Origin: Clostridia bacterium
GTDB taxonomy: Bacteria; Bacillota; Clostridia; UMGS1840
DNA: 64,000 bases
Assembly (NCBI GenBank): GCA_017468465.1
Contig: JAFUIN010000023.1
Coordinates: 1 to 64,000 of the forward strand
Reading direction: 5' to 3'
In this document: in pieces, positions 34,725 through 50,807 of the stretch
Position numbering within the stretch: the first letter of the stretch is position 1
Layout: each line of letters begins with the position of its first letter
The notes under the pieces: generated by a model
What the model saw: only the letters and a program-made list of their open reading frames with translations
The model's database searches: none
What the model was told of the DNA's origin: nothing
Translations under genes and position numbers: made by a program

Positions 34725-35486
34725 TTATCTTTTTCTGCGCAAAACTTCATACATACTGATTCCACCGGCAACCGCAACATTCAGCGACTCAATGTCGGAG
34801 TCCATGGGGATAATATAAACTTCATTCAAGGTTGCAAGAAGTTCTTTGGAAATGCCGTTTGCTTCCGAGCCCAGCATAATGGCTGTTTTATCGGAAAATG
34901 AAGTCTCATAAATGGACTTTGCAGTTTCCGTTAAAGCGGCTCCGTATATGGTGTAACCTTGTTCCTGCAAGGCAGAAACCAAATCGGCTAAATCCTTTAC
35001 CCGAATCAGATTCAACGAAAAAATTGCAGACATCGCAGAACGAACCACCTTGGGAGAAAACACATCGGCACAATTTTCGTCCATAACGATGTCAGTAAAC
35101 CCACTTGCCAATGCTGTGCGTAAAATCGTTCCTAAATTACCGGGGTCGGACACTCTATTTAACAAAAGTACCTGCCCGGAGGTAATCTTTCGCTCTTCCG
35201 GCATATGAAACACTGCCACAATTCCCTGCGGTGTCTTGGTTTCACAGACTTCCTTTAATACAGCATCGCTGACACGGTATATGTCTGTTCCTTCCAATGC
35301 GGGAACCGGCTCTGCAAACGTATTTTCCACAAGAAGCATGCTTGGCTGCTGCTTCTTTATACTGTCCATAACATTCCGATATCCCTCGGAAAGAAACATA
35401 CCGCTTTGTTCCCGATATTTTTTCTGTTTGAGCTTTTTGAGTTCACAAACAGTTTTGTTTTTAGAACTGGTGATTTCTTTTATCAT
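34725..35486 (-). CDS. TrmH/SpoU family RNA 2'-O-methyltransferase
   Basis: The second SPOUT methyltransferase in the window (253 residues). The N-terminal KELKKLKQKKYREQSG-like part and knot motifs LLNRVSDPGNLGTILRTAL, IMLGSEANGIS and IPMDSDIESLNVAVAGGISMYE identify it. It is distinct in sequence from rlmB at 18298. It probably methylates ribose 2'-OH of 23S rRNA or tRNA, but the target is not readable. A repeat array lies directly upstream of it. Confidence 0.93.
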   Translation of the reverse strand: MIKEITSSKNKTVCELKKLKQKKYREQSGMFLSEGYRNVMDSIKKQQPSMLLVENTFAEPVPALEGTDIYRVSDAVLKEVCETKTPQGIVAVFHMPEERKITSGQVLLLNRVSDPGNLGTILRTALASGFTDIVMDENCADVFSPKVVRSAMSAIFSLNLIRVKDLADLVSALQEQGYTIYGAALTETAKSIYETSFSDKTAIMLGSEANGISKELLATLNEVYIIPMDSDIESLNVAVAGGISMYEVLRRKR

Positions 35487-35527: not shown

Positions 35528-35993
35528 AAACAAGTGCACAATCACGGGATACGCTGCTTTCTACGGTATGTAGTTGGTGGAAAGCAGCAAGTATATTGTG
35601 CATTTTAGCGAATGCCGCGTACGTCTTTGTACGCAAGCGAGCGCAAATGTGCAAGGTACGCCGCTATCCATGGTATGTAATTTGAGGAAAGAAGTAAGTA
35701 GATTGTGCATTTTAGTGAGTGCCGCGTACGTCTTTGTACGCAAGCGAGCGCAAATGTGCAAGATACGCTGCTATCCATGGTATGTAATTTGAAGAAAGAA
35801 GCAAGTAGATTGTGCATTTTAGTGAGTGCCGCGTACGTCTTTGTACGCAAGCGAACGTAAATGTGCAAGGTACGCCGCTATTCATGATATGTAATTTGAA
35901 GAAAGAAGCAAGTAGATTGTGCATTTTAGTGAGTGCCGCGTACGCCTTTGTACGCAAGCGAACGTAAATGTGCAAGGTACGCCGCTTATTTCT
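35528..35993 (+). repeat. Array 1: about four copies of a 107-bp unit with a hairpin core
   Basis: The segment TTGTGCATTT starts at 35596, 35703, 35810 and 35917, giving an exact period of 107. A diverged partial unit precedes at 35529-35590. Each unit holds a core GAGTGCCGCGTAC, a 6-bp perfect inverted repeat GCGTAC/GTACGC with a 6-nt loop, and an outer arm TTGTGCATTT that pairs with AAATGTGCAA (two G-U pairs) as plus-strand RNA. The 107 period is not a multiple of three, and the short frames in it show no gene-like features. The array fills the gap between trmH and relA. A CRISPR array is excluded by unit length and sequence. Confidence 0.85.
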
Positions 35994-38171
35994 TCAAATT
36001 CTTTTGGCAGCAATGACGCCTCGGACATTATTCAACCGTACCAAAACCTTTGCAAGCTGGTCTTGACCGGTCACTTCAATGGTTAGATGGATAAGTCCGG
36101 TGCCGTCTTTTACGACTTTGGCAGACATAGCGTTAACAGGCACTTTCATATCGTTTAGGGCAAGGGTTAAATCCACCAAAAGACCATTACGGTCTGCAGA
36201 AGTCACTGCAAGGTCTACGCTGTGAGAACTTCCGTCCTCTGCTGCCCAGGTGGCTTCGACCAGTCGGTTTTTGTCGCCGTCGGAGCGCTCGATGTCACGA
36301 AGTGCTACACAATCAGCACGGTGAATGGTAACACCACGGCCGCGGGTAATATACCCCACCACTTTATCTCCGGGAACGGGAGAACAGCATTTTGCGGTAC
36401 GAACCAGGCAATTATCCTGCCCTTTTACCACAATTCCCTGCTTAATATGTTTTTTAACGGTTTTTTCTTTATTCGCATTTTGAATGTCATTCAAAACGGT
36501 ATTATCATCCGGAACACGGGTGCGTTCCAGATAATCCTCAATACGAAGTGCGATTTTTTCGGGGGTTATACCTCCATAACCCACAATCGCATAAAAGTCA
36601 TCTACTTTGGCAACACTGTATTTTTTGGAAATGTAGCCAAAAAGCTCTTCATTTTCTACCAGTTCCTTCAGGGTCATATCAAACTTTTTGATTTCTTTTT
36701 CCAGCATTTCTTTACCCTTTTGGATGTTTTCTTCCCGCTTTTCTTTTTTGAAAAACTGATTGATTTTACTTCTTGCCTGGCTGGTACGGGCAATTTTTAA
36801 CCAATCGGCATGGGGACCGGAAGATGTGGCAGAGGTGATAATTTCCACAATGTCACCATTTTGCAGTTTTTGGTCGATGGGCACAATACGATTATTCACC
36901 TTGGCACCCACCATACGCCAACCAACAGCGCTATGAACCATAAATGCAAAATCTATAGGAGTGGACCCACTGGGGAGACTGTATACATCCCCTTTGGGTG
37001 AAAAAACAAAAACTTCGTCAGCAAATAAGTCAATTTTTATATGGCTGATATATTCCGATGGGTTAGAAAAATCTTTTTCAGTTTCCAACAACTGACGAAC
37101 CCACTGGAATTTATCCCCGGAGCCGCTTTTGTTCTGGGCTCCTTCTTTATACTTCCAATGTGCAGCAATGCCGTATTCTGCAGTGCGGTGCATATCCCAG
37201 GTTCTGATTTGAATTTCGAACGGGGTTCCCGCATGACTGACTAAGGTTGTATGCAAAGACTGATACATATTCTGCTTGGGCATACTGATATAGTCCTTAA
37301 ATCTGCCGGGAATCGGTTTATAAAGCTCGTGTACACAACCGAGCACAGTATAGCACTCCGTAATGTTGCCGACTATGATACGAAGTGCGAACAAATCATA
37401 TATTTCGTCTATGGTGATGTTTTTAGAGTACATCTTCTTATAGATGCTGTAAAAATGTTTTGCTCTACCCTCAATATGAGCCTGCACACCGATTTCGGAA
37501 AGCTTTTCGGTCAGCTGGTCTTTGATGTCCTCAACAATCTGAAGACGCTGTGTACGCTTTTTGGCGATTCCGGTAGAAATTTCTTTATAACCAATGGGGT
37601 CCAGATACAATAAAGATAAGTCCTCCAACTCCCATTTTAAGTTATAAATCCCCAAGCGGTGCGCAATCGGAGCATAAATCTCCATGGTTTCCAGCGCTTT
37701 CTCACGCCGCTTTTCCTCAGGCATACTTTTCAACGTGCGCATATTGTGAAGACGGTCTGCCAGCTTGATGAGAATGACACGGATGTCTTTTGCCATCGCC
37801 ATAAACATCTTTCTTAAATTTTCAATCTGCTCTTCTTCTTTGGAGCTAAAATCAATTTGCCCCAATTTTGTTACACCGTCTACAATGTTGGCAATATCTT
37901 CGCCAAATTCTTTTTTTACATAGTCATAACCGTACTCGGTATCTTCAATGGTATCGTGGAGCAATGCAGCACAAATAGACTCGTCGTCCAGATTCAACTC
38001 AGCAATGATTTCTGCAACAGAAAACGGATGATTATAATAAGGTTCTCCGCTTCGCCGAAACTGACCTTCATGAGCCATTTTACAAAACTGATAGGTTTTT
38101 TGCAACAATCCCTCGTTACACTTTGGATTATACTTCTTTACTTTTTCTAAAAGCGCAGAAAACTGTTCCAT
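35994..38171 (-). CDS. relA: Bifunctional (p)ppGpp synthetase/hydrolase (RelA/SpoT)
   Basis: The 725-residue Rsh protein has an HD hydrolase domain (HPFSVAEIIAEL, LLHDTIEDT), a synthetase domain (HFYSIYKKMY to MPKQNMYQSLHTTL), a TGS domain (VFSPKGDVYSLPSGSTPIDF) and a C-terminal ACT domain. The HD motif has its catalytic His-Asp pair, so both functions are likely. It makes and breaks (p)ppGpp during starvation. It follows recJ by 43 bases. Its stop abuts the repeat array. Confidence 0.97.
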   Translation of the reverse strand: MEQFSALLEKVKKYNPKCNEGLLQKTYQFCKMAHEGQFRRSGEPYYNHPFSVAEIIAELNLDDESICAALLHDTIEDTEYGYDYVKKEFGEDIANIVDGVTKLGQIDFSSKEEEQIENLRKMFMAMAKDIRVILIKLADRLHNMRTLKSMPEEKRREKALETMEIYAPIAHRLGIYNLKWELEDLSLLYLDPIGYKEISTGIAKKRTQRLQIVEDIKDQLTEKLSEIGVQAHIEGRAKHFYSIYKKMYSKNITIDEIYDLFALRIIVGNITECYTVLGCVHELYKPIPGRFKDYISMPKQNMYQSLHTTLVSHAGTPFEIQIRTWDMHRTAEYGIAAHWKYKEGAQNKSGSGDKFQWVRQLLETEKDFSNPSEYISHIKIDLFADEVFVFSPKGDVYSLPSGSTPIDFAFMVHSAVGWRMVGAKVNNRIVPIDQKLQNGDIVEIITSATSSGPHADWLKIARTSQARSKINQFFKKEKREENIQKGKEMLEKEIKKFDMTLKELVENEELFGYISKKYSVAKVDDFYAIVGYGGITPEKIALRIEDYLERTRVPDDNTVLNDIQNANKEKTVKKHIKQGIVVKGQDNCLVRTAKCCSPVPGDKVVGYITRGRGVTIHRADCVALRDIERSDGDKNRLVEATWAAEDGSSHSVDLAVTSADRNGLLVDLTLALNDMKVPVNAMSAKVVKDGTGLIHLTIEVTGQDQLAKVLVRLNNVRGVIAAKRI

Positions 38172-48063: not shown

Positions 48064-49092
48064 TTATTCCAATGTCATTTGTTCATACTGTTCCGTTTTT
48101 TCATACGGAATCCCAAAATGCTGATATGCCAATCTGGTAACTACTCTGCCGCGAGGGGTTCTCTGTAAAAAACCAAGCTGCATAAGATAAGGTTCGTACA
48201 CATCTTCAATAGTGTTGGCATCTTCTCCGGTGGTTGCAGCCAGCGTTTCCAAGCCAACCGGCCCGCCGGAGAAAGCGTCAATCATGGTTTTGATCATATT
48301 TTTGTCGGTTCTGTCCAGCCCGATATCATCAATTTCCAGCATAGAAAGCGCATAATCTGCTGTTTTTGCATCTACGTTTCCATTAGACTTGATTTCGGCA
48401 TAGTCACGCACACGGCGCAACAAACGGTTAGCAATTCGGGGAGTTCCTCTGGAACGGCGGGCTATCTCCATTGCACCTGAAATTTCTATATTGACGCCCA
48501 GAATCTGTGCAGAACGAAGAACAATCTGCATCAGCTCCTCCGTGGTATAAAGCTCCAACCGCTGAAGGACACCAAAACGATCTCTCAAAGGAGAAGTCAA
48601 GCTACCCGCTTTTGTAGTTGCTCCAATCAATGTAAATTTGGGCAAATCCAGACGAATACTTCTTGCAGCCGGCCCTTTCCCGATAATAATGTCCAAGGCG
48701 AAATCTTCCATTGCCGGATACAACACCTCTTCCACGCTTTTGGAAAGACGATGAATTTCGTCGATAAACAAAACATCATGCTCGGAAAGGTTGGTCAGAA
48801 TTGCCGCTAAATCACCCGGTTTTTCAATGGCAGGACCGGAAGTGACACGCAAATTTACATTCAGCTCGTTGGCAATGATATTCGCAAGGGTTGTTTTCCC
48901 CAATCCGGGAGGTCCGTAAAACAAACAATGGTCCAAGGACTCATTCCTTTTTTTGGCGGCCTCGATAAAGATTTTCATATTCTCTTTTACTTTTTGCTGC
49001 CCGATATAGTCCTCCAGTGTTTTGGGGCGAAGACTCAGTTCAGAGTCATTTCCCAAAGCTTCCGGAGTGACAATTCTTTCTTCTTCCATCAT
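48064..49092 (-). CDS. ruvB: Holliday junction branch migration ATPase RuvB
   Basis: RuvB has 342 residues with Walker [11 protein letters not shown], Walker [10 protein letters not shown], sensor [18 protein letters not shown] and the C-terminal winged helix. It drives branch migration with RuvA. Its start is 584 bases from the ruvA stop, and the gap is filled by repeat array 2. Confidence 0.97.
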
Positions 49093-49159
49093 AGGCTTGG
49101 TTCCTTTCGTTACAAATTATCCATATCTATTCTATTGGCAAATGAAAATTTCAACTTTC

Positions 49160-49676
49160 AAAACAAGTCGCACGAAAATTGCTCAGATTGTGTATTTCAG
49201 CGAGTGCCGCGTACTTTTTTAGTATCGGTACGCGTCCATCTGTTTACCCGGAATTTTACCTTGAATAAGTCGCAGAAAAATTGCTCAGGTTGTGCATTTC
49301 AGCAAGCGCCGCGTACTTTTTTTGTTATCCGGCACGCGTCATCTACTGATCCAGGATTTTTACCTAAGACAAGTCGCAGAAAAATTGCTCAGGTTGTGCA
49401 TTTCAGCAAGCGCCGCGTACTTTTTTTGTTATCCGGCACGCGTCATCTGCTGATCCAGGATTTTTACCTAAGACAAGTCGCACGAAAATTGCTTAGATTG
49501 TGCATTTCAACAAGTGCCGCGTACTTTTTTGGTATCGGTACGCGTCATCTGCTGATCTAGGATTTTTACCTAAGACAAGTCGCAGAAAAATTGCTCAGGT
49601 TGTGCATTTCAACGAGTGCCGCGTACCTGGTGTACGCAAATGAGTGTAAATGTGCAAGATGAGTGATTTTTCAAGA
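49160..49676 (+). repeat. Array 2: five copies of a 102-104-bp unit related to array 1
   Basis: TTGTG(C/T)ATTTCA starts at 49188, 49290, 49394, 49498 and 49600, so the period is 102-104. Each unit begins AAGTCGCA(C/G)GAAAATTGCT or similar and has the core GCGCCGCGTAC or GTGCCGCGTAC. The spacer between core and next unit contains a variable T-rich tract. The last unit (49596-49660) carries the full array 1 hairpin, GCGTAC with GTACGC and AAATGTGCAA. The array splits ruvA from ruvB. No coding potential is evident. Confidence 0.85.
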
Positions 49677-50270
49677 CTACATTAACTCTTTTAGTGCTAA
49701 TTTAATAATCTCTTCCAGCTGGTCCGACTTGGAAGATACAAATTTCACTGCTTGACGGGATTCGTATGCAGAATATCCTAAAACCATCAGGGCGTTTACG
49801 GCTTCTTGCAAAATACTGTTGGGAACAGAAACGGTTGTTTCGCCGGAAGCTCCTGCAATTTCCCGAAGGTCAACCCCTTTCAGTTTGTCTTTTAATTCAA
49901 CGATAATTTTTTCTGCCAGTTTTTTCCCAACGCCTTGCGCTCTGGTAATGGATTGTGCATCCTGTGTTGCAACACTCATGGCAAATTCAGTCGGTGTTAA
50001 GGCAGACAAAACTGCCAAAGCAGCTTTTGGACCAACCCCCGAAACCGACAGCAGCATTTTGAAGGTAGAAAGCTCCTCTTCGGTGGAAAATCCATATAAA
50101 TCGAGAGCATCCTCCTTCACATTCAAATACGTGTAAACGGTTGCTTCCTGATGATTGGTAACACGGGCTAATGTTGTATTGGAGGTGTAGATTTTATATC
50201 CGATTCCCCCATTATGTATAACCAAGAACCCTTCTTTCACTTCTGCAAGTCCTGAAATACTATAATACAT
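49677..50270 (-). CDS. ruvA: Holliday junction DNA helicase subunit RuvA
   Basis: RuvA has 197 residues with the OB-fold start MYYSISGLAEVKEGFLVIHNGGIGY (in parts), then tandem helix-hairpin-helix motifs (LLSVSGVGPKAALAVLSAL and ITRAQGVGKKLAEKIIVEL), and the C-terminal domain that binds RuvB. It tetramerises on four-way junctions. It follows ruvC by 39 bases. Confidence 0.97.
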   Translation of the reverse strand: MYYSISGLAEVKEGFLVIHNGGIGYKIYTSNTTLARVTNHQEATVYTYLNVKEDALDLYGFSTEEELSTFKMLLSVSGVGPKAALAVLSALTPTEFAMSVATQDAQSITRAQGVGKKLAEKIIVELKDKLKGVDLREIAGASGETTVSVPNSILQEAVNALMVLGYSAYESRQAVKFVSSKSDQLEEIIKLALKELM

Positions 50271-50309: not shown

Positions 50310-50807
50310 TTATTTCAGCTTATCAAGATAACTGTGATAGCCGGAATAATTGGTGTGACAAACAGCAATCGCAAGGGCGTCGGCAATATCGTCCGGCTTT
50401 GGAATTTTCTCTAAATTCAGCAGCGTTTTTACCATTTTCTGAACCTGCATTTTTTCTGCTTTTCCATAGCCCACAACTGCTTGCTTCACCTGAAGCGGTG
50501 TATATTCATACACAGAAATTCCCGCAAGCTGACATGCCAAAAGAATGACTCCACGTGCCTGTGCAACGGCAATGGCGGTGGTGGTATTGGTATTAAAAAA
50601 CAGTTGTTCAATGGCAACCACATCAGGCTTTGTTTCTGAAAGCCAGAGATTCATCTCCCGAAAAATAGTCTCCAACCGGTTAGACATTTCTTCTTTCGGA
50701 AAAGTTTCAATTTTTCCGTATTTTACAGTGGAATATTTGTTCCCAAAATATTCAATTACCCCTACCCCAACCAATGCGTAGCCGGGGTCAATCCCCATAA
50801 TTCTCAT
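50310..50807 (-). CDS. ruvC: Crossover junction endodeoxyribonuclease RuvC
   Basis: RuvC has 165 residues with the RNase H-like start IMGIDPGYALVGVGVIE (Asp 6), the catalytic Glu in PDVVAIEQLFF, and the C-terminal Asp pair in KPDDIADALAIAVCH. It resolves Holliday junctions symmetrically. It is first in the ruvC-ruvA group; ruvB is displaced beyond array 2. Confidence 0.97.
   Translation of the reverse strand: MRIMGIDPGYALVGVGVIEYFGNKYSTVKYGKIETFPKEEMSNRLETIFREMNLWLSETKPDVVAIEQLFFNTNTTTAIAVAQARGVILLACQLAGISVYEYTPLQVKQAVVGYGKAEKMQVQKMVKTLLNLEKIPKPDDIADALAIAVCHTNYSGYHSYLDKLK

Follow-up and report, generated by a model that had tools for sequence, protein, structure and literature searches.

REP sequences are 14-40 nt long and combine a conserved stem with a tag, GTAG or CGTC, that stays unpaired (PMC3733652, PMC12306157); some are located 15 nt or less from a stop codon, and ribosome stalling has been reported for these (discussed in PMC12306157). 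Classical tagged REPs are associated with a RAYT transposase. ERIC sequences carry short constant terminal repeats, with a target duplication (Table 1 of PMC2229807), and alter mRNA stability in an orientation-dependent manner (PMC2229807). Template switching during replication, in which the reverse complement is copied, can make and repair perfect stems (PMC8794818), and palindromic candidate structured RNAs have been found in intergenic regions of human microbiomes, one of which, HMP2_1065, lies near ruvA in Bacteroidetes (PMC8040213).

The window, that is, the whole stretch of 64,000 nucleotides analysed here, belongs to a Clostridia genome of 1.51 Mb in 32 contigs (G000) and contains two repeat arrays, array 1 and, between ruvA and ruvB, array 2. 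The original prediction had described array 2 as five units with a period of 102-104 bases at 49160-49676, and this was confirmed both by TRF (4.5 copies of a 104-bp unit, 49163-49626, score 684) and by an ungapped repeat search, which placed the five copies at 49160, 49262, 49366, 49470 and 49572, with spacings of 102, 104, 104 and 102. The core and arm said to be common to both arrays were also recovered: GCCGCGTAC was present in all nine units (5/5 in array 2 and 4/4 in array 1) and, with one mismatch allowed, gave 16 matches in the window versus 4.6 ± 2.2 in shuffled sequence, and units 2-5 of array 2 harboured an exact TTGTGCATTT, unit 1 having TTGTGTATTT instead. As predicted, the whole array 1 hairpin was found in the last unit, and there only: unit 5 (49572-49676), which adjoins ruvA, was matched by the covariance model R3 at 49602-49655, and its apex consists of TTGCGTAC, a CCAG-type loop and GTACGCGG, with paired arms extending to the ruvA stop codon, whereas no R3 match was obtained for units 1-4, in which the other half-apex is ACGCGTGCC/ACGCGTACC together with the T-run.

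The ruvA-ruvB intergenic gap holding these five 102-104 bp units measures 584 nt. Since ruvC, ruvA and ruvB keep their usual order and every gene is left whole, the proposed splitting of ruvA from ruvB amounts to this enlarged gap, for which the array is responsible, and the ruvCAB cluster is not broken. Gene names (Table 1) derive from reading of the sequence, complemented for ruvA and ruvB with tblastn between relatives. The same kind of array occupies the same gap in the independently assembled congeners G001 and G003, so array 2 is not an assembly artefact. A 210-aa ORF (48928-49560, + strand) and an 87-aa ORF (35605-35975, - strand) are made mostly of repeats and are likely spurious genes in automatic annotation.

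Table 1. Features of the two arrays and their flanking genes in the window (covariance-model E-values are rough).
Feature	Coordinates	Strand	Basis
RlmB/TrmH-type methyltransferase gene, downstream of array 1	34725..35486	-	ORF
Array 1, four complete 107-bp hairpin units	35550..35986	-	TRF, repeat search, R3
spoT/relA-type gene; array 1 stem includes its end, AATTTGA	35994..38171	-	ORF, inverted repeat, filled/empty comparison
ruvB, downstream gene	48064..49092	-	ORF; tblastn
Array 2 unit 1, TTGTGTATTT variant	49160..49261	-	Repeat register
Array 2 unit 2	49262..49365	-	Repeat register
Array 2 unit 3	49366..49469	-	Repeat register
Array 2 unit 4, half-apex replaced (ACGCGTACC ... GTACGCGG)	49470..49571	-	Repeat register; no R3 match
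Array 2 unit 5, stop-proximal, complete hairpin	49572..49676	-	Repeat register, R3 E 1.2e-15, fold
ruvA, upstream gene; hairpin starts at its stop codon	49677..50270	-	ORF; orthologues 91-93% in genus
ruvC, upstream of ruvA, same direction	50310..50807	-	ORF

For array 1 (35550-35986), TRF gave a 107-bp unit present in 4.1 copies, with R3 matches at 35598-35652, 35705-35759, 35812-35866 and 35919-35973. The core also occurs outside the two arrays: a covariance model detected nine units in four places of the same genome, the two further sites being a degenerate three-unit array in a potB-/potC-like gap on C4 and, on C20, one copy after argB, and many other genomes carry it as well. The potB-potC gap (L001, G000:C4, 880-1340) also contains several other interspersed repeats, for example GTAGGGGTCGGCGTCCCCGACGACCC and one of a TCATTCTGAACG...CTTCACTTCGTGC type, and repeats like GTAGGGGACGATGCCCACATCGTCCC occur too in the potB-potC gap of G001-G003.

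A single copy of the element is an imperfect hairpin of 90-120 nt whose apex, in the gene sense, reads 5' TTGCGTAC-loop-GTACGCGG-C 3'. The stop-proximal ruvA unit begins, in that sense, at the stop codon and folds as AGTC..GAAAAAT..CTCA..TTG..CATTT..TTGCGTAC-loop-GTACGCGG..AAATG..CAA..TGAG..ATTTTTC..GACT. Differences between species are paired, both at ruvA (CATTT/AAATG versus CTTTT/AAAAG) and at potB (TTGGCG/CGCCAA versus GAGGC/GCCTC), and the copies inspected outside the genus are likewise long hairpins, interrupted by internal loops that are symmetric, with two bases on each side (for example CA/CA, TC/TC or CC/TC). Across a 34-copy alignment, 85.8% of the cells were paired, compared to 71.2% in shuffled and 30-50% in slid registers, the latter control leaning in favour of the structure, which was derived from the same sequences; double-change cells numbered 89 versus 38.7 in shuffled alignments. 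Pairing extends about 55 nt either side of the centre (about 69 in G016), and in four lineages the outer arms of a copy paired far better with each other than with those of different copies (0/5000 permutations). Arms of the window genus, at 41-55 nt from the centre, resembled each other across copies no more than shuffled sequence does, while element ends were much more constant in Desulfurivibrio (10.4/14 cross-copy). Several copies have a distal arm that repeats, in inverted form, the end of the coding sequence and its stop codon, as in hgdB (CTCTAG/CTAGAG, CCCTCTG/CAGAGGG), and an inverted copy of the coding end is also found in a lipoprotein gene (CCTAAGGGC/GCCCTTAGG). Template-switch copying would explain how arms can be unique and yet well paired, although such hairpins have been described for RNA genes and not for a dispersed element with a constant apex (PMC8794818). 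Both strands fold strongly, folding being weaker in G011 than in other lineages. The antisense strand folds somewhat better in 4/5 lineages, so a role as sense RNA is not favoured over one at the DNA level or in antisense; an antisense RNA transcribed from the + strand, suggested at first by the wobble pairs there, was dropped as a main claim given the strong folding of both strands and the modest difference.

Like REP elements and the GTAG/CGTC-tagged REP superfamilies, the element is dispersed, extragenic, palindromic, multi-copy, mostly located downstream of genes and present in several phyla, but it is longer (90-120 nt), only its apex is conserved and its arms are site-specific. By inspection, no consistent unpaired GTAG or CGTC tag was seen at the foot of the hairpin, the feet being variable and site-specific. 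With ERIC/IRU and MITE-like repeats it shares a size of about 100-127 bp as imperfect palindromes, a location in transcribed intergenic regions, the relevance of orientation relative to genes (PMC2229807) and interspersed copies with insertion polymorphism (the Collinsella sites described below and the ruvA and relA gaps), but its variable ends and conserved centre, without constant terminal inverted repeats, set it apart from ERIC. The microbiome RNAs, compared with the element by description only, are mostly predicted intrinsic terminators (PMC8040213). A search of 4227 Rfam families gave no match near the gathering score at the element, and a literature text search for the apex sequence returned nothing relevant among the matches listed. 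Integron attC sites, too, are long imperfect hairpins that follow a stop codon closely and whose arms are variable in part. Their recombination boxes lie at the ends and their middle is variable, the reverse of the element, and the attC candidate was rejected, RYYYAAC/GTTRRRY boxes being found in 0/67 copies. An intrinsic terminator, in which a T-run follows a GC-rich stem, was discarded as well: there were no terminator-like sites at 49000-49800, and a T-run followed only 1/67 copies.

The spacing of ruvA and ruvB was then compared in relatives. All five genomes of the window genus, the one genus covered in its family, carry the element (3-9 units each). Across these and other relatives, the gap with the element measured 584 nt (G000, 5 units), 463 nt (G003, 4 units) and 260 nt (G001, 2 units), versus about 52-70 nt (G004), 73 (G005), 12 (G006), 18 (G007) and 13 nt (G008) in the five relatives lacking it there; no ruvA was found in the G002 assembly. 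Similarly, the relA-rlmB gap was about 500 and 410 nt with the element and about 20 and 60 nt without it. The original prediction thus withstands its own refuting condition, an equally large ruvA-ruvB spacing in all relatives. The element was absent from four sister-family genomes of the order. Sites in the genus were limited to six gene ends (spoT/relA, ruvA, potB, argB, rseP and ftsW), each common to at least 2 species, with copies beginning behind the stop codon, and there was one extra inverted copy in the potB-potC gap of G001. Sites were empty at relA in G001 and G003 and at ruvA in G004. Copies at ruvA were most alike among themselves across species (90-98%), but the G003 potB and G001 ftsW units were 97% alike, and for 14/27 units the best match in another genome lay at a different locus. 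The shared positions thus speak for inheritance, accompanied by a degree of exchange between loci or of movement. Overall, the sequences suggest that the genus copies arose mostly by vertical inheritance and local tandem duplication, with a few signs of movement, the extra units being, by the same reading, local tandem duplications. Two contigs of G002, C62 (L057) and C66 (L060), carry two different potB 3' ends with elements, reflecting either a paralogue or a strain mixture.

To establish the distribution of the family, the apex pattern TTGCGTACAN{3,6}GTACGCGGCRBT was scanned over about 85,000 species genomes, yielding 55 stretches versus about 3 expected by a uniform-composition estimate. 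Carriers included Collinsella, Sporomusa and other Negativicutes, MAGs of Clostridia, Oscillospiraceae and Peptococcaceae, and Desulfurivibrio, so that, judged by sequence likeness, the family is present in bacteria of at least three phyla; the genus-specific repeat suggested by the search within the order was refuted by Collinsella, Sporomusa and Desulfurivibrio. Since the same pattern was used to collect the cross-phylum set, and variant apices exist in Collinsella, the constancy of the apex is overstated. With at most 150 candidates scored per genome, and in genomes that are mostly drafts or MAGs, matches of a covariance model built on the 34-copy alignment reached 66 in Desulfurivibrio (AMeS2), 61 in a Selenomonadales MAG (SL1-B47) and 39 in a termite-gut Bacillota MAG (Th196P3bin37), and ranged from 9 to 17 in Collinsella and from 2 to 6 in Sporomusa-type genomes. 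A phage or plasmid origin was rejected: exact apex matches in viral contigs numbered 0, and distant blastn with one unit each found no match in plasmids or phages. In Desulfurivibrio, a gene lying between inverted copies was considered as part of a composite transposon, an idea set aside because, on reading of its sequence, the gene looks like one for a corrinoid-type protein rather than a transposase. In the Clostridia MAG BRZ_BR__bin101 (L106, 2065-2352), the stretch from an rplA-like gene to an L10 leader holds three copies, spaced 113 bp apart, which form a tandem array of the family outside the window genus. In a termite-gut Bacillota MAG (L143, 834-887), a 23S rRNA gene is preceded, at a distance of about 50-100 nt, by one copy on the other strand.

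Copies usually begin at the upstream stop codon or tRNA end, in the sense orientation. A stop codon was found 35-70 nt upstream of the apex on the same strand in 67 of 96 copies, which include orthologous ones and are hence not independent, as against 11/96 on the other strand and 3.2 in shifted controls; the distances to the apex were 39-70 nt. This bias appeared in every group tested, being weakest in G011 (5/10 versus 1). Two copies (L129 and L142) lie behind a tRNA end, at -52 nt, the same distance as from stop codons, and in Desulfurivibrio the element's own TAA is often the stop codon. It is the conserved apex with site-specific, self-complementary arms, together with the post-stop position, that defines the family; neither trait had been described in the original prediction.

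Seven gene ends of Collinsella were polymorphic, the element being present, absent, replaced (by another apex or orientation) or nested. It directly follows the guaB stop codon in L313 and is absent from L314-L316; mobB is filled in L249/L256 and empty in L245, L248, L258 and L261; and a filled hgdB copy corresponds to an empty site in L326. At moderate divergence, the empty ruvA (G004), relA (G001, G003), guaB and mobB sites showed no matching palindrome. New copies were nested in the middle of old ones in L278, L281 and L282. At two Collinsella sites, copies are bordered by CGCTG and CCTAGGCTTTCCC; no clean target duplication was seen in the comparison of filled and empty Collinsella sites, guaB included. 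Five Collinsella loci (L253, L259, L267, L289 and L300) combine Collinsella-type arms with another apex, GGGCATGACC..GGTCTATGCCC or GGGCGCCGCACGC..GCGTGCGCCC, some of them reversed, which indicates that the apex is exchangeable. The idea of one spreading repeat family thus stands in that both arrays belong to one dispersed family with insertion polymorphism in Collinsella; within the genus, the spread is not free, copies being restricted to the six shared gene ends.

Taken together, we consider it probable that array 2 arose by local duplication of one member of a dispersed family of non-coding long palindromes, acquired at gene ends and forming a putative post-stop hairpin. An ordinary local tandem repeat, generated by slippage or unequal crossing-over and resembling array 1 by chance, would fit the near-identical units within the array and their varying number at ruvA (5, 4 and 2), but the same unit recurs elsewhere, both at further loci and in different phyla, and its hairpin keeps the same position; this process accounts for the extra units and not for the element, is refuted as a full explanation, and we regard it as extremely improbable. 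A core element could instead have inserted into the loop of pre-existing terminator-like hairpins, the outer arms being older. Such an origin would agree with outer arms that are unique to each site and self-complementary around an inner part common within a genome, with the position right behind gene ends and with the nesting of a new copy within an old one (L278, L281, L282), yet the arms extend into coding sequence and stop codons without T-runs after them, and the empty sites bear no matching palindrome, making it improbable.

A stronger competitor, although still rather unlikely in our judgement, is an ancient intercistronic cis-acting regulatory RNA that is not mobile and is kept by selection, empty sites representing losses. 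It draws on the recurrence of the same six gene ends across the genus, on compensatory changes with strong covariation and on the sense orientation behind stop codons. What tells against it are the 39-66 matches behind unrelated genes in some genomes (at most 150 candidates scored per genome), the polymorphism, nesting and replacement at the same Collinsella gene ends, the near-identical units at different loci of different species, and the slightly better folding of the antisense strand.

Under the dispersed-palindrome explanation, copies are acquired at gene ends, as seen from the insertion polymorphism in Collinsella, and they lie in the sense orientation directly after a stop codon or the 3' end of a tRNA. 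In several cases the outer arms are inverted copies of the host gene end, possibly produced by fold-back template switching, which at a palindrome may extend and repair the stem. In the genus, comparison of species shows mostly vertical transmission of the copies behind the six genes and, at ruvA and spoT/relA, growth by tandem duplication to a total of 2-5 units. An RNA element that starts at the stop codon agrees with both the position and the orientation, and the best reading, by analogy, is that of a dispersed palindrome of the REP/ERIC kind which, if it acts at all, does so as a post-stop hairpin. Any such hairpin, starting from the ruvA stop codon in a ruvC-ruvA-ruvB transcript, might work like a REP or ERIC element, so that the ruvA part would be altered in its stability or termination-proximal translation, and ruvB would be uncoupled. 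More tentatively, the family may represent an unnamed multi-phylum class of hairpins at gene 3' ends, whose outer stem would be built by inverted copying of the host end and whose constant apex would be recognised by a widespread factor, an enzyme or RNA-binding protein.

Known dispersed palindromes (REP, ERIC, MITE) have constant ends, and this family inverts the design, with a constant centre and site-specific arms. The natural pairs of filled and empty sites, together with congeners carrying 0, 2, 4 or 5 units between ruvA and ruvB, are suited to testing operon tuning by post-stop hairpins, and the filled and empty pairs also to testing if palindromes grow into host genes through template switching. 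Finally, the family would explain some intergenic sequence that is so far unannotated in Collinsella, a common genus of the human gut.
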